DNA of 37,855 nucleotides from a virus: the IMG/VR virus record IMGVR_UViG_3300033149_002200, positions 1 to 37,855 of that record; one strand, written 5' to 3'. This document shows positions 20,313-35,039 of the stretch, one piece after another (the first letter of the stretch is position 1; each line of letters begins with the position of its first letter). The notes under the pieces are model-generated. The model was not told where the DNA came from, did not search any database, and saw nothing but the letters and a program-made list of their open reading frames with translations. A program made the position numbers and the translations under genes.

Positions 20313-21110
20313 AACATCTTCTAATCCAGGTTTATTAGGGTCAACTAAATAATATTCTTTACAATTAAATGTTATTTCGTTTTCCATTTGTATTGCTTGT
20401 TTTAAATTTTTATTAGTATATGTTGATACTAAATTTTTTAAATCATATTCTATTTCTTCTATTTTTTTATCTGTAAAATCTTCTAATGTTAAATCTGGTA
20501 TAAATTCTAATAAACTGTCACTAAAATCACCATAATTTTCCATCCCCCACATATCTTTGTTTTCTAACACTTCTTGTATTGCATCTTGTCTATCACCATC
20601 TATTTGTAAATCTATACCATCATAATCCCAACTACCATCAAGATCACCATCATGTAATAAAGTATAATATTCTTCACTAAATCTTTCTTCTACATCTTCT
20701 AAACTAAGTTTATAATTATCAATTTTTGTATACAAATCACCAATTTTTGGTGACCATATATATTTGTATTTACCTATTGGAAAGAATAAAAATGCTTTAC
20801 CATATTCTTCAGCATCATCCATTTTAGAAGTAGCAAAAATACCTGATGACCGCGCATACCAACCAAATTTCTTCTTAAACAAGTTATCTAAATATTGTGA
20901 TGTTGTTTCATCCATATCTTTTGGTTCTCTATCATTTCTGGTTTTCTTTTTAGTTATTGTACCAGAAGCATACATATGTCCTCTTAGAAGAAATTCTTTT
21001 CTTCCTGTTTGTTTTAATTCTTTAAGAAATGGAGCACAATCTTTTTTAAGAGCATTAACAACATCATCATACTTAGACTGTTCCTCATTTATATATTGTT
21101 GTAATCTCAT
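20292..21110 (-). CDS. ADP-ribosyltransferase-like protein 1, capsid-targeting-like N-terminus (272 aa)
   Basis: The tag is MRLQQYINE, with a cut predicted after I-N-E. The mature protein has the marks of an R-S-E ADP-ribosyltransferase: R43 in FLLRGH, an ATS segment at about 93-95 (GIFATSK) and glutamates at 243/245 before ITFNCKEYYLVD. It shares KKDC (about 22-25), a KKTR-DR-P segment and FGW-x-x-R with two neighbouring genes, so the three are paralogues. T4 Alt is a packaged ADP-ribosyltransferase that modifies host RNA polymerase on injection; this may be a functional counterpart. An acidic insertion (about 130-225) makes it longest of the three. It is the last gene of the late leftward operon. 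Confidence 0.55.
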   Translation of the reverse strand: MRLQQYINEEQSKYDDVVNALKKDCAPFLKELKQTGRKEFLLRGHMYASGTITKKKTRNDREPKDMDETTSQYLDNLFKKKFGWYARSSGIFATSKMDDAEEYGKAFLFFPIGKYKYIWSPKIGDLYTKIDNYKLSLEDVEERFSEEYYTLLHDGDLDGSWDYDGIDLQIDGDRQDAIQEVLENKDMWGMENYGDFSDSLLEFIPDLTLEDFTDKKIEEIEYDLKNLVSTYTNKNLKQAIQMENEITFNCKEYYLVDPNKPGLEDVLEREFF

Positions 21111-22528
21111 ATTAACTCCATTATGTGTTTATTAATTTCTTCTTTATCAGAAATATTATTATCTAATATCCATTCAGTTGTTTTTCTTATAATTTCACCA
21201 ACTTTTTTACCCTGACTAAGGCCTGTTATATCCATAACATGGTTTCCATCTACAAGCTTAAGTTGTTTATTAACTAATGGCATACCAAATTTATCTTTAA
21301 TTTTAATACACTTATCAATTATTTTTTCAAATTCACCAGCATACATAAATGTTTCACCACGTGAAAATTCATCTGCTCTTGAAACAGCAACTAAAACATC
21401 CCAGTTTTCATCATTAACAAGTTTAGAAATTTTACTTGGTTTCATTTTAAGTATATTATGAAACTTCATATGGTTACCAACAGCAAATATTAAAGATTGT
21501 CTTTCTTTGTTAGACATTTTTAATCTATCAGCTATACTATCAACTAAATCCATACTAGCTTTTGCGTGACCGAGATATTTTGGTAAGCCTTCTTTTTGTG
21601 AAAATGTAACACCCTTACCAACATCATGTAATAATATTGATAAATTAGATATAGGATCAGCAGTATTACTTTTTCTTAATGCTTCCATTGTATGTGTCCA
21701 TACGGTTCCACCACCACCTCTAGTTTCTGGATGATGTTGAAGATTTTCTCTCCAAAATTTTAAGTTTAATACTTCAGGTAGTATATGTTTTAATATTTTA
21801 AGTTTATCAAGTTCAATAATATAATCAGCAAATTTATCACCGCTTTGTGCAGCAGCTTTTAAAATTTCATCTTTTATTCTTTCAGGTGATAGTTCTAAAA
21901 TTTTATTTGATAATTTTTGTGCTGCTTTCTTTGTATCCTTTTCTATTTCAAATCCTAGCTTAGATGAAAATCTTGCGGCACGCATTATACGAAGATGGTC
22001 TTCTCCAAATCTCTTATATGGATCCCCAACAGTTCTAAGTAATTTATTTTTTATATCTTTTCTACCATCAAAGTAATCTATAATATTACCATCTTTATCA
22101 ATAGCCATTGCATTTATTGTAAAATCACGTCTGCCGGCGTCATCTTCAAATGAACCAGTTATTTTTATAGATTCTGGTTTTCTACCATCTAAGTATTTAC
22201 CATCATTACGAAACTGAGCTACTTCAAATTGAAAACCACCTTCCTTTACAACAACTATACCAAAATCTTTTGATTTGCCAATATCATATGTTTTCCATAA
22301 CTTAGAAATTTCATCCATAGGCATATTTGTTGCAACATCAACATCGTGAGGTTCTTGACCTAAAATAATATCACGTACAACTCCACCAACTATATAAGCT
22401 TTATAGCCTTTTTTGTCTATTTTTTGAAGTATTTTAACAGCTGAATTTAACATTTTATTACCTTTCACGTATTTATTCCAGTCCTTTAATGCTTCTTTTG
22501 CTTCTATTAAGTATTGTGTTAATCTCAT
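21107..22528 (-). CDS. cca: CCA-adding tRNA nucleotidyltransferase, capsid-targeting-like N-terminus (473 aa)
   Basis: The tag MRLTQYLIE (cut after L-I-E) precedes a complete polymerase-beta-type nucleotidyltransferase: IVGGVVRD (about 46-53), the two carboxylates in HDVDVATN (D62, D64), DAGRRDFTINAMA and GDPYKRFGEDHLRIMRAARF. A C-terminal HD domain has LLHDVGKG. The enzyme adds or repairs the 3' CCA of tRNA. Phage-encoded versions occur, but a version that appears addressed to the capsid would act as soon as the DNA enters, before new tRNA genes are read. That fits protection of tRNA from host nucleases. The start overlaps the upstream stop as ATGA. Confidence 0.85.
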   Translation of the reverse strand: MRLTQYLIEAKEALKDWNKYVKGNKMLNSAVKILQKIDKKGYKAYIVGGVVRDIILGQEPHDVDVATNMPMDEISKLWKTYDIGKSKDFGIVVVKEGGFQFEVAQFRNDGKYLDGRKPESIKITGSFEDDAGRRDFTINAMAIDKDGNIIDYFDGRKDIKNKLLRTVGDPYKRFGEDHLRIMRAARFSSKLGFEIEKDTKKAAQKLSNKILELSPERIKDEILKAAAQSGDKFADYIIELDKLKILKHILPEVLNLKFWRENLQHHPETRGGGGTVWTHTMEALRKSNTADPISNLSILLHDVGKGVTFSQKEGLPKYLGHAKASMDLVDSIADRLKMSNKERQSLIFAVGNHMKFHNILKMKPSKISKLVNDENWDVLVAVSRADEFSRGETFMYAGEFEKIIDKCIKIKDKFGMPLVNKQLKLVDGNHVMDITGLSQGKKVGEIIRKTTEWILDNNISDKEEINKHIMELI

Positions 22529-25202: not shown

Positions 25203-25900
25203 ATATACCAACCACTAATTCCTTTTTTTATTTGTTCTATTGACATTATTTCAGGTGATAAATACTTCCATCCGTTTCTTATCATTGTTTCTTTATATTC
25301 TTGACCAATAGGATTATTAATAGATGAGTTATAAAAACTATTCATAAATTTAAAAGCATGTGTTACAACATCATTAGTTAATTCTCCATCATTATTATCA
25401 ACTTCAATCCATGTTTGAAATTTACCACGATAAAATGTTTTAGCTTTATTAACTTGTTTGTATACTTTTTCAATAAAATCTTTATCAACTTGTCTTTCTC
25501 TTTTTGATGCTCGTTCAATGGCTGTTTCAAGAGAAGTATTAACAAATACCATACCAACATCATATCCAAATGATTCAAGAATACCAACTCTTTTTAATAC
25601 AGCACTTGGATTATTAGCAGTTCCATCAACAGCAAGTGGTAACATTGAATTTATATAACCAGCAAGTTGATTACTATTTATTATTTTTACTTTTGTTGCT
25701 ATTTTACCCCACTGGTCATTCCAATATTCTTTAAATAAAGGAAACGCTTTATCTGTATTAACTATTCTTGGTTCAACGCTACCTGATTTTATTTTTGATA
25801 AGGTATATGATTTTCCAGCACCAGGATGGCCACACATAAAACAAGCTTTAAAAATTCCTTTATCGTTAATACCTTCATTTAAATAATTTTCTAATCTCAT
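25199..25900 (-). CDS. P-loop kinase (zeta-toxin/polynucleotide-kinase-like), capsid-targeting-like N-terminus (233 aa)
   Basis: The tag MRLENYLNE is followed by Walker A CGHPGAGKS (23-31). A VDGTANNPSAVLKR segment (about 92-105) and VNTSLETAIERASKRER (about 124-140), the lid-like Arg-rich stretch, follow; together they fit zeta-type or polynucleotide-kinase-type phosphotransferases. The substrate is uncertain: RNA 5' ends would fit the neighbours, while a zeta-like sugar-nucleotide target would make it toxic. The 40 C-terminal residues are unassigned. It is coupled by ATGA overlaps on both sides. Confidence 0.6.
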   Translation of the reverse strand: MRLENYLNEGINDKGIFKACFMCGHPGAGKSYTLSKIKSGSVEPRIVNTDKAFPLFKEYWNDQWGKIATKVKIINSNQLAGYINSMLPLAVDGTANNPSAVLKRVGILESFGYDVGMVFVNTSLETAIERASKRERQVDKDFIEKVYKQVNKAKTFYRGKFQTWIEVDNNDGELTNDVVTHAFKFMNSFYNSSINNPIGQEYKETMIRNGWKYLSPEIMSIEQIKKGISGWYI

Positions 25901-27336
25901 TTTATCTTCTCCGGTTTTGTTGTTACAACAAATGATTTAGCAGCGTTAACCATAATGTTTGCTTTTCTCATAAATCTTCTATTGATAAGTATATGAGTTC
26001 GTTTTGATCTATCATCAAGTGTAAAATCAACTTCTTTAAATATAACACCATCAAATGTTACATCAAGTTCTACAATTGGTCGTTTTTCTGTGTAGTTTCT
26101 CATTCCACCTACATGAACATCTTTTATTTTTTTATATGGATGTTTAAATTTTTTCTTATTATATGTCCATGTAACTGTTTTAGTTTTTTCATTTATATCA
26201 TAGCTATCTGCGTGCATCACACACAAGCTTCCATTACCAGTATCAAATTTAGCTACTATTTCTTCTCCATCAAATTCAACAATTTCTTTAAATCCAATTT
26301 CATTAGCAACTTTTACCCAGTTATCTTTATTTAATACCCATTCTATTACTTCACCAGTAATATCTTGACCTGTTGCTTCTTCAATTCCAGCTGTTCCAGG
26401 TGAACTATTTACTTCAAGAATAAAAGGTTCTCCTTTTTTATTTGATATAAAATCAACACCAGCCCATGTAGCACCAACAGCTTTAGCTGCTTTTATACAT
26501 ATATCTTTTTCTTCATCTGTAAGTTTTACTGATTTTATTTTTCCACCTTGTGAGTAGTTACTACGGAAATCATCTTTTATTACAAATCTTTTCATAGCAG
26601 CAATTACTTCGTCACCTAATATATGTGCTCTTACATCAAATGGAGCTGGTATATATTCTTGTATTAATAATTCTTCATCTTCATTTATTTTCCATATAAC
26701 TTGTAAAATAGATTTTAATGATTTTATTGATTCGGTAAAAAACACACCAACACCTTTAGAACCTGAAATAGTTTTTACAACATAAGGAAAATCACTATCA
26801 AGTTGTTCTAAAGCATAATCAAGTGTATCTATACTTTGAATTAATGCTGTTTTTGGAGATGTTATTGCAGCAGCACCCATTTTTAATATAGTTCTATATT
26901 TATCTGAGCATGTTTCAATTGCTTGTCTATCGTTTATACAAAATATATTAGCTTTTTCTAATTGAGATATAATATTTAAAGAAGATTTTTTTTGCATAAC
27001 AGACCCTCTATTTATAACAACTGTTTTGTCTGAATCAATTGGAAATCCTTTTTTATCATTCCAATTATGTATTGTATAATCACCATTATCATCTTTTATT
27101 ATATGAGCATTTTCAATAAATAAAACATAATAAGGTATATGTTTTTTACTACAAGTATCAGCTAATCTTTGAGCAGTCACATAAAGTTTATCTTTTTTAC
27201 TTTCGTTTCTACTAGTAATAATAACAACATTAATTTCTGTATTTTCTTTTGATTCAACTATTTTTCCAGTTTTTATTTTTTTATATTGACTAGCTGGGCC
27301 TAATGTTTCTGTTAAATGATTATTGAATCTACTCAT
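25897..27336 (-). CDS. RimK-type ATP-grasp ligase fused to a retropepsin-like protease domain, capsid-targeting-like N-terminus (479 aa)
   Basis: The tag variant MSRFNNHLTE offers a cut after L-T-E. Residues about 35-335 are a RimK-like ATP-grasp ligase: KTISGSKGVGVFF, then LLIQEYIPAPFDVRAHILG, WAGVDFI and FILEVNSSPG. Residues about 345-475 resemble the ATP-dependent zinc protease domain found beside RimK: KFDTGNGSLCVMHADSY, VELDVTFDGV and ILINRRFMRKANIMVN. RimK adds glutamates to ribosomal protein S6. A ligase and a protease in one chain, apparently addressed to the capsid, suggests early modification of the ribosome or another host protein. The start overlaps the upstream stop by one base. 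Confidence 0.7.
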   Translation of the reverse strand: MSRFNNHLTETLGPASQYKKIKTGKIVESKENTEINVVIITSRNESKKDKLYVTAQRLADTCSKKHIPYYVLFIENAHIIKDDNGDYTIHNWNDKKGFPIDSDKTVVINRGSVMQKKSSLNIISQLEKANIFCINDRQAIETCSDKYRTILKMGAAAITSPKTALIQSIDTLDYALEQLDSDFPYVVKTISGSKGVGVFFTESIKSLKSILQVIWKINEDEELLIQEYIPAPFDVRAHILGDEVIAAMKRFVIKDDFRSNYSQGGKIKSVKLTDEEKDICIKAAKAVGATWAGVDFISNKKGEPFILEVNSSPGTAGIEEATGQDITGEVIEWVLNKDNWVKVANEIGFKEIVEFDGEEIVAKFDTGNGSLCVMHADSYDINEKTKTVTWTYNKKKFKHPYKKIKDVHVGGMRNYTEKRPIVELDVTFDGVIFKEVDFTLDDRSKRTHILINRRFMRKANIMVNAAKSFVVTTKPEKIK

Positions 27337-29354: not shown

Positions 29355-29394
29355 TAAAAAAACCCAAGCAACTTTTCAATTACTTGGGTTTTTT
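29355..29394. terminator. Bidirectional rho-independent terminator
   Basis: An eight-base stem (AACCCAAG 29361-29368 with CTTGGGTT 29383-29390) is flanked by an A tract on the left (29356-29362) and a T tract on the right (29389-29394), so it can act on both strands. It ends the leftward ubiquitin-like cassette at 29415 and separates it from the late operon. Confidence 0.8.
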
Positions 29395-29414: not shown

Positions 29415-30137
29415 TTAATTTGTTTCTTTATCGTCAAGATTGTTTTCTTCAAGTATTTCTAATTCTTCTTTTAATGTTTTATCTTCATCAAAATTAAGTT
29501 CTTCAGTCTTTTTCTCAAAGAACTCTTCATCATCTTTTGTAAGAAATTCACTATAACCATATGGATTAGAAATATTATCTCTCCATGTTGTGTATGTTTT
29601 TTCTTTAATTTTTCCTTTTATATTATCAATGAATAGTTTATCATCAAAATTTATATCAACTTTTGGTTTTATATTTGCTGGAATTATTTTTAAAGAACCA
29701 CATGGTGTTTTCCATCTTACTTGTCCACTTATACTATTATCTGATATACAAATTGAAATGTTATGATTTTGATTTATCCAATCTTTATCAGTGGGAGAAA
29801 AATTTGTACCCATATCATTATGGGAATGAATAACTCCCATAACTTGTAAACTATTATATTCTGGACAAATAACATTATCAATTGTTACTGATGTTATTGT
29901 TTGTGTTGGAATAAAAATATCATCAATATTTAAATCTTTTCCAATTAAATAAGCAAGCCATTCTTTACCAGTAAACTCTTTCATTAAAGCATCAATTTTA
30001 CATTTTGCTAATTGACTAATAAATATATCTATTTTTTCAGGTGATTTACTGCAGTCTTTTACAGTATCAATTTTAACTTCCCAACTATCAGCATCAGCAT
30101 TAAAATTATACACACTTTTGTTTCCACAATTATACAT
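29415..30137 (-). CDS. JAMM (JAB1/MPN-type) metalloprotease, deubiquitinase-like (240 aa)
   Basis: The full JAMM zinc motif is present: E59 in TGKEWLAYLIG, H104-S-H106 in GVIHSHNDMG, S114 and D117 in SPTDKDW, with the standard seven residues between H106 and S114. JAMM enzymes remove or process ubiquitin-like proteins. The C-terminal 60 residues are acidic (EELEILEENN) and probably disordered. It is the last gene of a cassette with an E1-like, an E2-like and a ubiquitin-like gene. It might mature the Ubl tail or release it from targets. Confidence 0.75.
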   Translation of the reverse strand: MYNCGNKSVYNFNADADSWEVKIDTVKDCSKSPEKIDIFISQLAKCKIDALMKEFTGKEWLAYLIGKDLNIDDIFIPTQTITSVTIDNVICPEYNSLQVMGVIHSHNDMGTNFSPTDKDWINQNHNISICISDNSISGQVRWKTPCGSLKIIPANIKPKVDINFDDKLFIDNIKGKIKEKTYTTWRDNISNPYGYSEFLTKDDEEFFEKKTEELNFDEDKTLKEELEILEENNLDDKETN

Positions 30138-30732
30138 TTTTATAATTTCCTTTATATTTAAATAATTCTTCTATACTTCCAGATGTTTCATAATTATAAT
30201 ACTTCATAATCTTAGCAACACTTATTGCGGCAATAACAACTGCTGGTACAACCCAAGACGGTGTTATTTGATAACCATCTTCTGATTCTCCCCATTCAGC
30301 AACAACATTGTTTATACTAAATTTATCACCATCATATCCAGCTTTAAAATATTTAGAACCAATTGATTTTGCAATTTCTTGATTCTTTAATTGTGATTTA
30401 TATTTATCAGTACAATCAACCACCCAATCAGTATTTGTTGATAATGATTGAGAATACTTAAATGGAAAAGAAAATATTGAATGTTCTGGTCTCAAATCAT
30501 TAACAATACTTCTAATAACATCTGCTTTATTTTTTCCTAAGAATTTATATGGTATATCAATTCTGTTTAAATTATGTTCTTCAAATACATCTGGATCAAA
30601 AACATATATCTTGTTTATACCAGCCATTGCTGCAAATTTTACTACCCAAAATCCAACTCCCCCAGCACCAATAACAGTAAGAGATTGGTCATTATTTATA
30701 TTCAAATCTTTTTGACGTTCTAAAATAGACAT
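30130..30732 (-). CDS. E1-like (ThiF/MoeB family) adenylyltransferase (200 aa)
   Basis: The nucleotide-binding loop VIGAGGVGFWVVK (GxGGxG at about 22-27), the acidic pair in VFDPDVFEEHNLNR (44-57) and VVDCTDKYKSQ (104-114) are the family hallmarks. E1-like enzymes adenylate the C-terminus of a ubiquitin-like protein. The only Cys seen is C107, next to the metal-binding aspartates, so a separate catalytic cysteine domain is missing. The enzyme may only adenylate and pass the Ubl directly to the E2-like partner. It overlaps the JAMM gene by eight bases. Confidence 0.8.
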   Translation of the reverse strand: MSILERQKDLNINNDQSLTVIGAGGVGFWVVKFAAMAGINKIYVFDPDVFEEHNLNRIDIPYKFLGKNKADVIRSIVNDLRPEHSIFSFPFKYSQSLSTNTDWVVDCTDKYKSQLKNQEIAKSIGSKYFKAGYDGDKFSINNVVAEWGESEDGYQITPSWVVPAVVIAAISVAKIMKYYNYETSGSIEELFKYKGNYKNV

Positions 30733-30747
30733 TTTAAATTTCCTTTC

Positions 30748-31602
30748 TTATAACGACCAGACTTCTGTATCATCTTGTCTAATATCACCAGTAATACCTT
30801 GTCTTAATGACTCACGACTTATAGCTTCAACACTATGTCTTTCTGTAACAACATTCTTTTTAACAGTATTTATTCTTGGTAAACCTCTTGGATTATTTGT
30901 TGCAAGAGAACCAGTATTAATATTTTCAAGCATTGATTCAGCTTGTCTACCAATTGCAAGAATATCAGTAGGTGTTTCCCATGTATTTTTATATGTCCAT
31001 TTTCCCCAACAATCAGGTTTACTTTGGTGATAATGGTTAAAAAAATCAAGTCCTATTGGTTTTCTTGTTGATACTTCTGTGATATATTTTCCTTTAGTTA
31101 TTATCATATACACAACAGAAGAAACCATTCGTTTTGTAAACTTTATATCAAGTGGTTTAAAATCTAATGTTTTTGGCCAATATATACCACTAATTAACCA
31201 ACATAAAGTATCTTGTAGTTGTCCTTTAGTTAAAGATAAACCTTTCATTGCATCTTCATAAGTAATATTAGGCATAGGTTGTGTTTCTTTTAACTTCTTT
31301 TCTAATATCTTTTCTTTTCGTTCTGACTCTGCTTTTAAAGAATTATGATAACCATTAATCTTTTCAATCTCAGCATTAATCTTTTCCTTAATTCTTTTTT
31401 GTTGTTCATTCAGTTTATTACGAAAATCTGCTTTAATAATATCAATATCTGGTATTGGATTATCAGTATCAATAGAAAATTTTAAAAGCCTATCACCGAT
31501 TCTCATTGATATACCTTCAGCTTTTAATCCTTCTATATCAATATTATCTAATGAAGTAAACATACTATCTTTACTTTCTTTTATTTGTTCTTCTAAAGTC
31601 AT
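30748..31602 (-). CDS. Putative E2-like protein of the Ubl cassette (284 aa)
   Basis: The N-terminal 110 residues include a coiled coil (about 62-108). The C-terminal part has features of an E2/UBC-like fold: a hydrophobic strand SSVVYMII, then HYHQSKPDCWGKW with candidate catalytic Cys198 behind H190 and H192. It continues TWETPTDILAIGRQAESMLEN, which resembles the W-x-P-T-x-x-I helix following the E2 active site. The call rests on these motifs and on the neighbouring genes. The last 45 residues are polar, perhaps a flexible tail. Its start follows GAAAGGTATAAAAA. Confidence 0.5.
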   Translation of the reverse strand: MTLEEQIKESKDSMFTSLDNIDIEGLKAEGISMRIGDRLLKFSIDTDNPIPDIDIIKADFRNKLNEQQKRIKEKINAEIEKINGYHNSLKAESERKEKILEKKLKETQPMPNITYEDAMKGLSLTKGQLQDTLCWLISGIYWPKTLDFKPLDIKFTKRMVSSVVYMIITKGKYITEVSTRKPIGLDFFNHYHQSKPDCWGKWTYKNTWETPTDILAIGRQAESMLENINTGSLATNNPRGLPRINTVKKNVVTERHSVEAISRESLRQGITGDIRQDDTEVWSL

Positions 31603-31622
31603 TTTTTATACCTTTCATAAGT

Positions 31623-31652
31623 AATAGCAAGTAAAAATTTTTACTTGCTATT
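31623..31652. repeat. Perfect 15-base inverted repeat between the Ubl and E2-like genes
   Basis: AATAGCAAGTAAAAA and its exact complement abut with no spacer in the DNA. In RNA it would form a long hairpin with a small loop. No T tract follows it on the minus strand, so it is not a standard terminator. It may protect the Ubl message or partly stop transcription, so that Ubl is made in excess over the enzymes. Confidence 0.75.
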
Positions 31653-31686
31653 GAAATATTTTACACATTTTTAGAAATAAAAAACC

Positions 31687-31965
31687 TTATGCAGCTTTAT
31701 CATAAGGTCTAATTTCTGCTTTCATTCCTGATTCGAATACATCTGGTGCTGTTGAAGGTTTTACTTCTTCATTATTCAAAAACACACGGAATTTACCAAA
31801 TTCAGCATTAAGAGCAACGTCTTTAATTGCTTCAGCAAAATTCATACCTGGTTCAACTCTAACATCACTTCCGTTAACTCTAACAAAAGTATTGTGTACT
31901 GAATCATCAAGAATAACTTCTTCTAGCACCTCATTACTATCTTGGTCCCAATATTCATCTGACAT
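31687..31965 (-). CDS. Ubiquitin-like (beta-grasp) protein (92 aa)
   Basis: The ATG at 31965 follows GGAGG at eight bases, so it is preferred over one at 31980. After an acidic N-terminal stretch (EVLEEVILDD), the rest has the beta-grasp order: VRVNGSDVRVEPGMNFAEAI, a helix, FRVFLNNEEV and GMKAEIRPYDKAA. Presence beside E1-like, E2-like and JAMM genes supports a conjugated modifier. The C-terminus is Ala-Ala rather than Gly-Gly, which is unusual for a conjugated ubiquitin-like protein. It is the first gene after a strong promoter and should be the most expressed member. Confidence 0.65.
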   Translation of the reverse strand: MSDEYWDQDSNEVLEEVILDDSVHNTFVRVNGSDVRVEPGMNFAEAIKDVALNAEFGKFRVFLNNEEVKPSTAPDVFESGMKAEIRPYDKAA

Positions 31966-31995
31966 TTTAATTACCTCCATTTTTATTTTTTCTTT

Positions 31996-32024
31996 ATTCT
32001 AACATAACTTACTGGAAACGTAAA
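31996..32024 (-). promoter_or_regulatory. Sigma70-like promoter of the Ubl cassette
   Basis: Minus strand: TTTACG (32024-32019), 17-base spacer, TAGAAT (32001-31996), with GTTTAC overlapping the -35. The RNA should start about 31989 and include the GGAGG site of the Ubl gene. This makes the cassette independent of the clamp operon upstream. Confidence 0.65.
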
Positions 32025-32031
32025 CATTTTT

Positions 32032-32772
32032 TTATTCTCTTATAGAAAATAAACAATATTTTTCAGAGCCATCAAGTGAGTATATATAAAGCAATCCTAA
32101 TTCTTGTTCTTCGTTATATGTAAATTTAATTTTAAATTTTTCAAATTCGTCATTTATTACATTCATTACACTTGCTATATCATTGTAAGTGAAACAAAGA
32201 CAAATATTATCAATTTTTTTAGCATCCGCTAAAGTAAATTTCAAACCATTTGAAAATTCATTTGTTTTATCAGTTGTTTCAATTATAAACTTACCATTAT
32301 CTATTTCAAAATAAACTCTACCAAATTTTGGTCCAATCTTTTTTATTTTGTTAAATGCTTTTATAAAATCTTCATTAATTTTAGTTTCAAAAAACCAATT
32401 AGCATCTTGTTTTACATCTTGTTTTCCAAATAAAGTTATAATCATAGGAGAACAAAAATTAATATTGGTTTGTTGGTTTATATCTCTTAGCAATATTTTA
32501 TTTTTGTATAATTTGATTTCAACTTCATCATTATCAAATATATCTAAATATGGTTTTACTTCTTGTGCTGGTTCTGAAAAATTAAAATCCACTTCATCAT
32601 TTGTGTTTAAAACATTATTATCAATATTTAAAATTGATATTGAACCATTATCATTTGAAATCATACTGCTAGTAATTTTTCCATCACTAAATTTCAATTG
32701 AACTGTTTTTATGATGTTGTTTATTGTTGCTTTTTTTAATACTGTTATAAATTCTTTTATATTTATTTTCAT
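32032..32772 (-). CDS. 45: Sliding clamp, gp45-like (246 aa)
   Basis: The sequence has the alternating strands and helices of a processivity clamp: KFSDGKITSSMISNDNGSIS near the start, a connecting segment, and GRVYFEIDNGKFIIETTD in the second half. Its length is close to T4 gp45 (228). It lies directly after the two clamp-loader genes, the same order as T4 genes 44-62-45 by position, though in T4 gene 45 comes first. The clamp encircles DNA, tethers polymerase and in T4 also activates late transcription. The stop is immediately followed by the Ubl promoter. Confidence 0.75.
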   Translation of the reverse strand: MKINIKEFITVLKKATINNIIKTVQLKFSDGKITSSMISNDNGSISILNIDNNVLNTNDEVDFNFSEPAQEVKPYLDIFDNDEVEIKLYKNKILLRDINQQTNINFCSPMIITLFGKQDVKQDANWFFETKINEDFIKAFNKIKKIGPKFGRVYFEIDNGKFIIETTDKTNEFSNGLKFTLADAKKIDNICLCFTYNDIASVMNVINDEFEKFKIKFTYNEEQELGLLYIYSLDGSEKYCLFSIRE

Positions 32773-33122
32773 TTAATTCTCTCCATAAATTTTAGTGTCA
32801 TTTTTGCTTCTCTTTTTGAAATATTATACTGTTCCTGTAACAATTTTATATCTTTTAACTTTTGTTTTTCTTCTGGTGTCTTTTTAGTCCACTTAATATA
32901 TCTTCTACCTTTGGGAACTCTATCAAAGTAGTAATCATATATTACTTTATCTGGTAAACTAAATTGTAAAAAACAAATTTTATGAACTATATTAATTAAA
33001 TATTTATCATGTGATAACCACAAAGATAACATATATGCTGCTGCAGTCTTTTTATCATATTTGTACTTTGATGTTTTCATATATATTTGATTGAGGTAAT
33101 CAAACAGTGTTATTTTTTTCAT
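32769..33122 (-). CDS. 62: Clamp loader small subunit, gp62-like (117 aa)
   Basis: The N-terminus ITLFDYLNQIYMKTSKY and the segment AAAYMLSLWLSHDKYLINIV fit the gp62 pattern of T4-like phages, and the RVPKGRRYIKWTKK segment is a further typical element. At 117 residues it is shorter than T4 gp62 (187). It would bind a gp44-type ATPase tetramer to open the sliding clamp. Its start overlaps the tiny membrane-protein gene (ATGA), and its end overlaps the clamp start by four bases. Confidence 0.65.
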   Translation of the reverse strand: MKKITLFDYLNQIYMKTSKYKYDKKTAAAYMLSLWLSHDKYLINIVHKICFLQFSLPDKVIYDYYFDRVPKGRRYIKWTKKTPEEKQKLKDIKLLQEQYNISKREAKMTLKFMERIK

Positions 33123-33247
33123 TTTACCACCACATTATATACAATAATACTCAACACAGATAATACTATAAGAATATAAGTAATCATAAAATATTCAACA
33201 AAAACATAATACATTATATTATATATAATATCATTTAATTTTTTCAT
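33119..33247 (-). CDS. Small membrane protein between clamp-loader genes (42 aa)
   Basis: This short frame is linked by ATGA overlaps both to the end of the gp44-like gene and to the start of the gp62-like gene, so it fits the operon at both ends. It encodes a basic start (MKKLNDII) and one long hydrophobic segment (about residues 20-40: FMITYILIVLSVLSIIVY). A single-pass membrane peptide in the clamp-loader operon is unexpected. It may simply exploit early expression to act at the membrane. Confidence 0.5.
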   Translation of the reverse strand: MKKLNDIIYNIMYYVFVEYFMITYILIVLSVLSIIVYNVVVK

Positions 33248-34146
33248 ATTATCTTTTCAAATATCATATTTATTATCATGTGCATAAAGTTTACTTCTTT
33301 AATTGGATATGTTCTATCCCATCTTAAGTGGTCACCAATTGTAAGTATTGCGCCACCTGGTTCTTTAAAATCACTAACATTTTCATAAAAGTAATGATAT
33401 AGTGAAGTATAATCAATATAATTACTTTTTAATTCTTTTCTAACTCCTTCTATATCTTGATTAAGTGCCATTCTAAGAATTTGTTTCCATAGTCCTTCAG
33501 AAGAAGATATTTTATCTCCTAACAGTTTACCATTTATAGTATTTTCTTGTAGTGCCCATATTGTTTTACGTATATCTGGATAACATTTTTTAACAATACT
33601 AACAACTGTTTTCATTTGATACTTAACTTTTTCTTCTTTAAGAATTTTTATACAGAATTTAGCTATGTCTTTTGCTGGTGGATTATCAACTTTTAATACA
33701 ATACATCTTGATTGTAATTCTTCCATCATAATAGTAATATCATTAGTTAAAAATATAAATCTTGTAATTTTATTAACATCTTCCATTAATTGTTTTAACA
33801 TTTTTTGAGCACCTTGTGGTCCTCTTGTTAGACTATCGGCTTCATTCATTACTACTATTTTCATATCAGTTAATGAGGCAGCATTAGCAAACGGTTTTAC
33901 TGTATCTCTTATAAAATCAATACCTGTATGGTCTGAAGCATTAATCCATAACTTACTGTAACCAGTGTGCTTTAAAATAATATTTGTAAATGTTCCTTTT
34001 CCAACTCCAGCTGTTCCATACAACATTAAATTAGGTAATTCATCAAGTGCTTTTTTTAATTTTGGTTTAATATTATCATTTAAAATTAAGTCTTCAAATT
34101 TATCAGGTTCGTGTGTAAATGTCCATATAGCTCTATTATTATTCAT
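33244..34146 (-). CDS. 44: Clamp loader ATPase subunit, gp44-like (300 aa)
   Basis: The ATG at 34146 follows GGAGTAATG; an upstream frame to 34191 overlaps the preceding gene. Walker A is YGTAGVGKG (43-51), the Walker B acidic motif appears as VVMNEADSL (near 98-106), and QSRC is the SRC arginine-finger motif of clamp loaders. The length is close to T4 gp44 (319). With the gp62-like subunit it loads the sliding clamp using ATP. Confidence 0.85.
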   Translation of the reverse strand: MNNNRAIWTFTHEPDKFEDLILNDNIKPKLKKALDELPNLMLYGTAGVGKGTFTNIILKHTGYSKLWINASDHTGIDFIRDTVKPFANAASLTDMKIVVMNEADSLTRGPQGAQKMLKQLMEDVNKITRFIFLTNDITIMMEELQSRCIVLKVDNPPAKDIAKFCIKILKEEKVKYQMKTVVSIVKKCYPDIRKTIWALQENTINGKLLGDKISSSEGLWKQILRMALNQDIEGVRKELKSNYIDYTSLYHYFYENVSDFKEPGGAILTIGDHLRWDRTYPIKEVNFMHMIINMIFEKII

Positions 34147-34402
34147 CATTACTCCATACTTCTGTATCAATATTTTCGTCATCTTTTGCATCTTCTATAT
34201 CGCTTAGCATTGTTTCCCATAACCACTCTATTTCATCTTTAATATGTAATAACAATTCATCTACTTTAGAATTAACAGTGTCTTCAAATTCTTGTTGTAA
34301 TTCTTTTCGCCTTCCAGTACTAAGCTCTTTTATTTCATCACGTACTGAATCTATTTTCCAATTAAACCATTTTAATAACAATTTTGATATAATGTCATTC
34401 AT
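34139..34402 (-). CDS. Small acidic helical protein (87 aa)
   Basis: This is the first gene after the promoter at 34436-34464. It is almost wholly helical, with a basic first part (LLLKWFNWKIDSVRDEIKEL), a coiled-coil-like centre and a very acidic end (DIEDAKDDENIDTEVWSNDE). It overlaps the gp44-like gene by eight bases. No family is recognised. As leader gene of the clamp operon it may be an early regulator or a replication accessory protein. Confidence 0.5.
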   Translation of the reverse strand: MNDIISKLLLKWFNWKIDSVRDEIKELSTGRRKELQQEFEDTVNSKVDELLLHIKDEIEWLWETMLSDIEDAKDDENIDTEVWSNDE

Positions 34403-34464: not shown

Positions 34465-34929
34465 TCAAAATTCTTTTATCTTTTCTAGTAAGTAAAGTTT
34501 TCTAAGTCTTACATGATTAGGGATAAATTTATAATCTAACCATGTACGTACAATTTCCTCTATTGTATTAATTGTAGGTAGTTTACCTGGTAATATTAAT
34601 ATGTTAGAGTTATAGTCTTCTCTTGCTATTTTTGCTTCTTCTTTACTAAAGCAAACAGTTGCTCTTATGTTTTTATTTTTATTAGCAGCCATTGACATTT
34701 CCATACCAGTTTTACAAATAAGAATACCCAGATGTCTGTCGTCTTCTAAATGTTCAAGTACTAAACTTGATACCATTGACGCATACACTGGGTAGTCAAC
34801 TTGTTCTTCTTTTAAACGTGTTCCTATATTATTTATAGTATACTTATGTTCCGTTTCTTTTAAATATTTTAATATTTTTTCTTTAACTTCAAAACCATCT
34901 TGGTCACTTGCAACATACAAATTATACAT
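34465..34929 (-). CDS. RpiB-like (LacA/RpiB family) sugar-phosphate isomerase, altered active site (154 aa)
   Basis: Two family motifs are clear: VASDQDGFEVKEKILKYL (canonical ASDHAGxxLK) and GILICKTGMEMSMAANKNK (canonical GILICGTGxGMSIAANK), with the catalytic Cys at 72. RpiB interconverts ribose-5-phosphate and ribulose-5-phosphate, which could feed nucleotide synthesis. However the His after the first Asp is replaced by Gln, the second His region reads EDYNSNIL instead of EHNDANVL, and CGTG is CKTG. It may have lost isomerase activity or changed substrate. Length matches the family. Confidence 0.65.
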   Translation of the reverse strand: MYNLYVASDQDGFEVKEKILKYLKETEHKYTINNIGTRLKEEQVDYPVYASMVSSLVLEHLEDDRHLGILICKTGMEMSMAANKNKNIRATVCFSKEEAKIAREDYNSNILILPGKLPTINTIEEIVRTWLDYKFIPNHVRLRKLYLLEKIKEF

Positions 34930-34951: not shown

Positions 34952-35039
34952 TGGAGGAAGGTATGGGAGTCGAACCCATAAGGCTGTTTACACCTGACAG
35001 TTTAGCAAACTGCTCCTTTAACCATTCGGGCAACCTTCC
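34952..35039 (-). tRNA. tRNA-Ser (anticodon GCU)
   Basis: The minus strand begins GGAAGGT and ends ACCTTCC-T-CCA, a seven-pair acceptor stem with encoded CCA. The anticodon stem-loop GCAGT-TTGCTAA-ACTGT presents GCU, which reads AGC and AGU. A long variable arm and the TTCGACTC T-loop support serine identity; total length 88. The discriminator base is T where bacterial serine tRNAs usually have G. AGT is a common serine codon in these genes, which explains its retention. Confidence 0.9.

Follow-up and report, generated by a model that had tools for sequence, protein, structure and literature searches.

A predicted ubiquitin-like conjugation cassette beside the sliding clamp genes of large, uncultured T4-like phages

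Gene content and RNA signals of the locus

The stretch analyzed here (the window) covers positions 1 to 37,855 of a virus contig of 62,936 bases, IMG/VR record IMGVR_UViG_3300033149_002200. An earlier reading of its letters (the original prediction) had placed a ubiquitin-like (Ubl) conjugation cassette at positions 29415-31965, consisting of a Ubl modifier, an E2-like protein, an E1-like protein, and a JAMM protease. Four adjacent minus-strand open reading frames (ORFs) were found at these positions, and sequence comparison supported their assignment as a four-part Ubl conjugation set, the function itself being predicted. All seven genes of a larger block, in the order gp44-gp62-clamp-Ubl-E2-E1-JAMM and on one strand, recurred on 30 distinct contigs. 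The features of the locus in the window are listed below (UBC, ubiquitin-conjugating).

31687..31965, minus strand: Ubl, a predicted beta-grasp modifier of 92 aa with a disordered N-terminus and the C-terminal end ...RPYDKAA (in homologues ...RPYDVAG, some with a few more residues)
30748..31602, minus strand: E2-like protein of 284 aa; a coiled coil at the N-terminus precedes a predicted UBC-like domain (about 106-252) with the candidate catalytic Cys198
30130..30732, minus strand: E1-like protein, 200 aa; minimal adenylyltransferase of ThiF fold lacking a Cys domain
29415..30137, minus strand: JAMM/JAB metallopeptidase, 240 aa; E59, H104, H106, S114, and D117 all present
32032..32772, minus strand: gp45-like sliding clamp (phrog_223, DNA polymerase processivity factor, 1.2e-6), the gene preceding Ubl in the block
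32769..33122, minus strand: gp62-like small subunit of the clamp loader (Pfam Phage_clamp_A, 6.4e-12)
33244..34191, minus strand: gp44-like AAA+ subunit of the clamp loader (phrog_168, 4.4e-56)
31616..31658, minus strand: hairpin in the RNA of the Ubl-E2 gap, for which attenuation or processing is proposed
29355..29394, minus strand: intrinsic terminator past the JAMM gene

The loci were gathered by E2 and E1 protein scans and alignments, followed by ORF and HMM analysis. The Ubl ORF spans 31687-31980; the start was set at the ATG at 31965 because a GGAGG Shine-Dalgarno sequence lies shortly upstream of it, which gives 92 aa, and the four cassette proteins together amount to ~816 residues. Their median identity across the 30 distinct contigs was 33-52%. 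Chance or mis-called ORFs were ruled out, since the four genes are conserved on these contigs and the catalytic residues are kept.

The terminator predicted after the JAMM gene proved real, with a 17-pair stem at 29357-29394 (z -6.3). An early-type promoter of the cassette's own had also been proposed, at 31996-32024. This site is a 9/12 match, and a scan of the region found 53 sites of that type versus 44 ± 6 by chance; the promoter is thus not above chance, and the argument built on expression from it is not supported. In 26/29 loci, the RNA of the Ubl-E2 gap was more stably folded than 95 or more of its 100 dinucleotide shuffles (median z -3.7); the gap between clamp and Ubl, used as control, reached this in 4/24 (median z -0.1). 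The stem of this hairpin, placed at about 31621-31654 in the window, recurs while the sequences differ, and U-rich stretches follow it in several loci. Its likeliest role would be partial termination or processing, so that more Ubl than enzyme is probably produced.

Predicted proteins of the cassette

The E1-like protein matched Pfam ThiF at 6.6e-21 (75 bits; cut-off 28.1), and its family profile matched MccB, Uba1, UBA5, ThiF, Cap2 (2.6e-9), and BubCD in PDB. Residues G22, G24, G25, G27, D46, D48, R57, K69, D106, and D109 were kept in 30/30 sequences, including the glycines of the GxGGxG motif on which the assignment had been based, and C107 in the motif VDCTD (29/30) was the sole conserved Cys. 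The catalytic Cys that canonical conjugating E1s hold in a Cys domain or crossover loop was not found in this 200-aa protein. Judged by its sequence, it is a noncanonical minimal E1 of the E1/ThiF superfamily, in agreement with the earlier suggestion that an E1 lacking a separate Cys domain might use a chemistry unlike that of known cascades.

The JAMM protein gave a weak match to Pfam Prok-JAB (7e-4, under the curated cut-off). The complete JAMM set, E59...H104-S-H106-x7-S114-x2-D117, was read as predicted, fits the pattern E...HxH-x7-S-x2-D, and was unchanged in 30/30 sequences. With regard to the JAB-N domain of type 6d operons, which has a conserved Arg and Trp, W19 is invariant in the phage family and the N-terminal part contains no Arg conserved at 90%.

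In the structural model of Ubl (17 sequences, pLDDT 75), strands and helix follow one another as in a beta-grasp protein. The model matched ThiS, MoaD, the parkin Ubl, and SUMO with Foldseek probabilities of 0.9-1.0, and structural alignment gave Z of 6-7.7 over 63-73 residues. The predicted structure is thus consistent with the beta-grasp fold claimed at the outset; by sequence, no match was found in Pfam, PHROGs, or PDB searches. Ubl homologues mostly end in Asp-Val-Ala-Gly or near it, and about a dozen carry extra C-terminal residues (A, T, I, R, LV, AE, VE, NVVLV, and others). Gly occupies the tail position in 28/31 family sequences and Ala occupies it in the window protein. The Ala-Ala end reported before is real, though unusual, and the exposed C-terminal Gly expected of a conjugable Ubl is absent from the window protein. 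The Gly-Gly tail of the ThiS/MoaD sulfur carriers was likewise not found, the tails being Ala-Gly or Ala-Ala. A JAMM that trims such tails would explain why a JAMM gene is present in every complete set.

The E2-like motif H190-Y-H192-QSKPD-C198-W-G was read exactly as first written. In the family alignment, C198 and H192 were kept in 32/32 sequences and H190 in 31/32; W199, G200, N229, S232, and P238 were each present in 32/32. The consensus is HYHQxxPDCWG; H190 and H192 occupy the HPN-loop position, the tail reads N-x-x-S...P, and none of the His residues downstream of C198 was conserved. The HYHQ before the Cys and the W-x-x-P helix after it would agree with UBC enzymes. The model of the protein (18 sequences, pLDDT 77) consists of a long N-terminal helix (53-106) followed by a domain (106-252). 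This domain superposed on UBC enzymes with Z of 4.6-5.3, 102-125 residues aligned, and rmsd of about 4-5 Å, and the rows of the structural list other than coiled-coil matches were almost all E2 enzymes. Foldseek alone gave no significant fold match. The superposition favored the expected E2 fold with modest scores, and Foldseek did not; a UBC fold is likely but not proved. Two loci, L005 and L006 (5959-7701), carry tandem E2 duplicates, both with HYHQxxPDCWG, and also encode a 643-aa JAMM with added Cys-rich repeats.

Occurrence in phages and inheritance with the replication genes

T4-type portal (PF07230) and major capsid (PF07068) proteins were found above cut-off on four cassette contigs, three of 120-164 kb and one of 204 kb, indicating that the cassette carriers are T4-like tailed phages and supporting the claim that the cassette belongs to the phage. 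Neither protein was found in the recovered DNA of the window's own contig and of some others. Searches by tblastn with E2, JAMM, and clamp against 50,697 catalogued phage records gave zero matches, as did those with E2 and JAMM in phage and plasmid collections, and E1 met only generic ThiF/MoeB-like stretches in the catalogued phages. No report of the cassette was found in the open-access literature; most subscription journals lie outside it, and an earlier description is possible. Jumbo phages were reviewed comparatively in 2021 by authors who had described the bacterial systems, and that review does not mention the terms JAB, ThiF, or Ub-like (PMC7824862).

The count anchored on gp44 rather than on the cassette placed the cassette at 31 of 38 distinct gp44 loci, and its presence changed at least five times on the gp44 tree. 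Among the loci lacking it, some are short, and its absence is certain only within the recovered DNA (5-7 kb downstream where measured); the exception is the L119 record, which was searched whole with E1 and Ubl. The four genes hold a fixed order beside the same genes down to 23-39% identity. Pairwise distances correlated at 0.63 between gp44 and E1, compared with 0.66 between gp44 and clamp. This co-divergence, together with the presence at 31/38 gp44 loci, indicates that the cassette has for the most part descended together with the replication genes, with occasional losses. Recent acquisition or an assembly artefact was ruled out by the synteny and the co-divergence. Each cassette record holds one E1 and one Ubl. 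At L115, the clamp is followed by two other ORFs and then by a gene that resembles, by eye, the immediate neighbour past JAMM in L003. The seven-gene block also occurs in two differing copies (L021 and L022, on 6- and 16-kb contigs) within one metagenome-assembled genome of a Thermoplasmata archaeon; these may be virus contigs binned with it, or they may hint that the host is archaeal.

A second, distant phage Ubl-E2-E1-JAMM cassette was observed at L075, L076, and L077 (around 6.5-9.4 kb) and at L080 (1.4-3.9 kb), with no clamp genes found nearby and no match of its E1 in the catalogued phages. Its Ubl is small, its E2-like protein carries NVCTG or a similar motif (His...Cys-x-Gly...IN-x-x-S), and hhalign against the clamp-linked family gave 3.4e-5 (probability 72) for E2 and 1.6e-6 for Ubl. 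A third phage set (L078, 7028-9561; L079, 7074-9426) comprises an E1, a JAMM, and a candidate E2-like protein rich in Cys pairs, with a possible Ubl of 103-107 aa upstream that ends ...QAGx; profile comparison showed no clear kinship of this candidate to the clamp-linked E2 family. Phage Ubl conjugation sets probably extend beyond the clamp-linked clade.

Comparison with known systems, proposed pathway, and alternatives

The type 6d operons (Iyer, Burroughs and Aravind 2006), which we take to be PRTRC-type, resemble the phage cassette in that Ubl, E2, E1, and JAB are separate genes in one operon, with a small Ubl that ends in Gly in most members and a stand-alone E1 without rhodanese. Their E2 lacks the upstream His and has an absolutely conserved downstream His, and a fifth, alpha-helical protein is encoded (PMC1779556). 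The phage E2, in contrast, has both His residues upstream of the Cys and none downstream; no fifth helical protein is found among the four, the gaps being mostly too short for another gene, in a comparison confined to the cassette; and the phage cassette adjoins clamp genes in phages. The profile check against PRTRC that had been proposed came out negative, the phage E1 scoring 19.6 bits on PRTRC_ThiF (TIGR03736; cut-off 144.75).

The BilABCD locus also consists of four genes, for Ubl, E2, JAB/JAMM, and E1, with a two-domain Ubl (BilA), a large E1 with a Cys domain, and a CEHH E2 motif (PMC11354881). BilA contains two tandem Ubl domains, whereas the phage Ubl is a single domain; BilD has inactive and active adenylation halves plus the Cys domain, whereas the phage E1 is a single domain; and the CEHH of BilB, a Glu and two His downstream of the Cys, has no counterpart in the phage E2. 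Bil is a defence locus, and the cassette here is phage-carried. CBASS type II shares the E1/E2 chemistry and a JAB-type peptidase (Cap2/Cap3), but Cap2 is an E1-E2 fusion with a CD-NTase as substrate (PMC12355090) rather than a beta-grasp Ubl, whereas the phage parts are all separate; no CD-NTase was recognised among the cassette neighbours read. Membership in Bil, PRTRC/6d, and CBASS was rejected, as their defining features were looked for and not found.

Tail assembly clusters of the lambda type pair a phage-encoded Ubl (TAPI) with a JAB peptidase (TAPK) (PMC1779556), but lack E1 and E2 and belong to tail rather than replication genes. Ubiquitination and SUMOylation of eukaryotic PCNA likewise tie Ubl machinery to a sliding clamp. 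This is an analogy only; the phage clamp is of gp45 type, no E3 was found, and the target here is inferred.

The phage system probably conjugates its Ubl to proteins. Our favored reading, with a probability of about 0.42, is that it is a complete, phage-owned Ubl conjugation and deconjugation system acting on the phage's own replisome. The strongest clue, which the original prediction lacked along with the recurrent Ubl-E2 hairpin, is the position of the cassette beside gp44-gp62-clamp in 30 loci. It points to the replication machinery, and the target may be the sliding clamp, its loader, or their partners, a suggestion drawn from synteny for which PCNA serves as a lead only. In this pathway, wherever Ubl carries extra residues, as in some homologues, the JAMM would cut it back to Ala-Gly, and the ThiF-type E1, with its intact adenylation residues, would adenylate the Ubl C-terminus. 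Because the E1 has neither a Cys domain nor a conserved crossover Cys, Cys198 of the E2-like protein would receive the activated Ubl directly from the adenylate. The E2 would then place Ubl on lysines of phage replication proteins, the first candidates being the sliding clamp or its partners, and the JAMM may take it off again. The most far-reaching form of this reading, a vertically inherited viral Ubl pathway that modifies the phage's own clamp or replisome through direct transfer from a minimal E1 to an E2 and is a counterpart of PCNA modification, is doubtful.

Several points weigh against the favored reading. The cassette is missing next to the clamp at 7/38 gp44 loci, and a related 171-kb record contains no E1 or Ubl anywhere (whole-record search); since some related phages do without the cassette, it is not needed by every such clamp. 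The Ala-Ala end of the window Ubl is unusual among E1 substrates. The E2 assignment has no sequence match in Pfam or PDB (nor in PHROGs), and its structural scores are middling, at a level that unrelated folds can also reach. What synteny establishes is joint inheritance, and probably joint expression, but not the substrate. A conserved clamp lysine was considered as the modification site; K14 was the only invariant lysine in the clamp alignment, and this invariance is no evidence of a target.

Host tagging, virion marking, and action against Bil, the roles raised in the original prediction, are less likely readings. Ubl might be conjugated to host proteins, shutting down or redirecting them or countering Ubl-based or CBASS defence, and the site beside the clamp would reflect early or middle timing only. 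The absence of the cassette from some relatives would suit such a host-interaction module, bacteria deploy Ubl conjugation against phages (Bil, PMC11354881; cited in PMC12660748), and Borg elements have been proposed to strip host modifiers (PMC12660748). We consider this explanation unlikely. Host-interaction genes usually move and turn over, whereas these four genes keep a fixed order and track the divergence of the replication genes, and the phage owns a Ubl that a purely anti-defence JAMM would not need.

A sulfur-carrier pathway, in which Ubl adenylated by the E1 becomes a thiocarboxylate and the Cys protein acts with the JAMM to produce a thiolated tRNA, nucleotide, or DNA base, is improbable. 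The E1 is ThiF/MoeB-like and, as in MoeB, has no Cys domain; clusters of a ThiS/MoaD-like Ubl with E1 and JAB are known in sulfur metabolism (PMC1779556), and the phage has tRNA and tRNA-processing genes. Yet in the block neither a rhodanese nor a cysteine desulfurase nor any other sulfur gene was recognised, the Ubl tail is Ala-Gly and not Gly-Gly, and the UBC-like protein, with its invariant Cys and the His before it, has no place in such a pathway.

That Ubl marks virion proteins during assembly, with the JAMM maturing or removing the mark, recalls the TAPI-JAB coupling described above, but is highly improbable given that those clusters have no E1 or E2 and that the cassette sits with replication genes, tens of kb from portal and capsid on the contigs of 120-204 kb. 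Equally improbable is an adaptor or scaffold of unrelated fold as the 30748 product, which would reduce the set to a two-enzyme activation/peptidase pair: the missing Pfam and PDB matches and the lack of a significant Foldseek fold speak for it, and the invariant Cys with upstream His, the UBC-like strand order and C-terminal helix, the E2 enzymes that fill the structural list beyond the coiled coil, and the related E2-like protein of the second phage family speak against it.

Prokaryotic Ubl conjugation is known chiefly as an anti-phage defence of bacteria and from plasmid and mobile operons. Here, a clade of large, uncultured T4-like phages owns an entire predicted Ubl set, kept beside the genes for its clamp and clamp loader. 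An active set would give these viruses a modifier system of their own and offer a candidate example of clamp-linked modification beyond the eukaryotes; very small as its E1, E2, Ubl, and JAMM are together, it would also be suited to reconstitution. If the replisome is indeed its target, protein tagging may serve these viruses in controlling the copying of their DNA, as it does in human cells.

Other genes of the window, all on the minus strand, were also recognised. Beside the clamp-loader genes lie a ribose/galactose isomerase gene (34465-34929; LacAB_rpiB, 8.5e-35) and a tRNA-Ser(GCT) gene (34952-35039). A tRNA nucleotidyltransferase homologue is encoded at 21107-22528 (phrog_2244, 1.1e-77), and a RimK-type ATP-grasp ligase fused to an ATP-dependent zinc-protease-like domain at 25897-27336.

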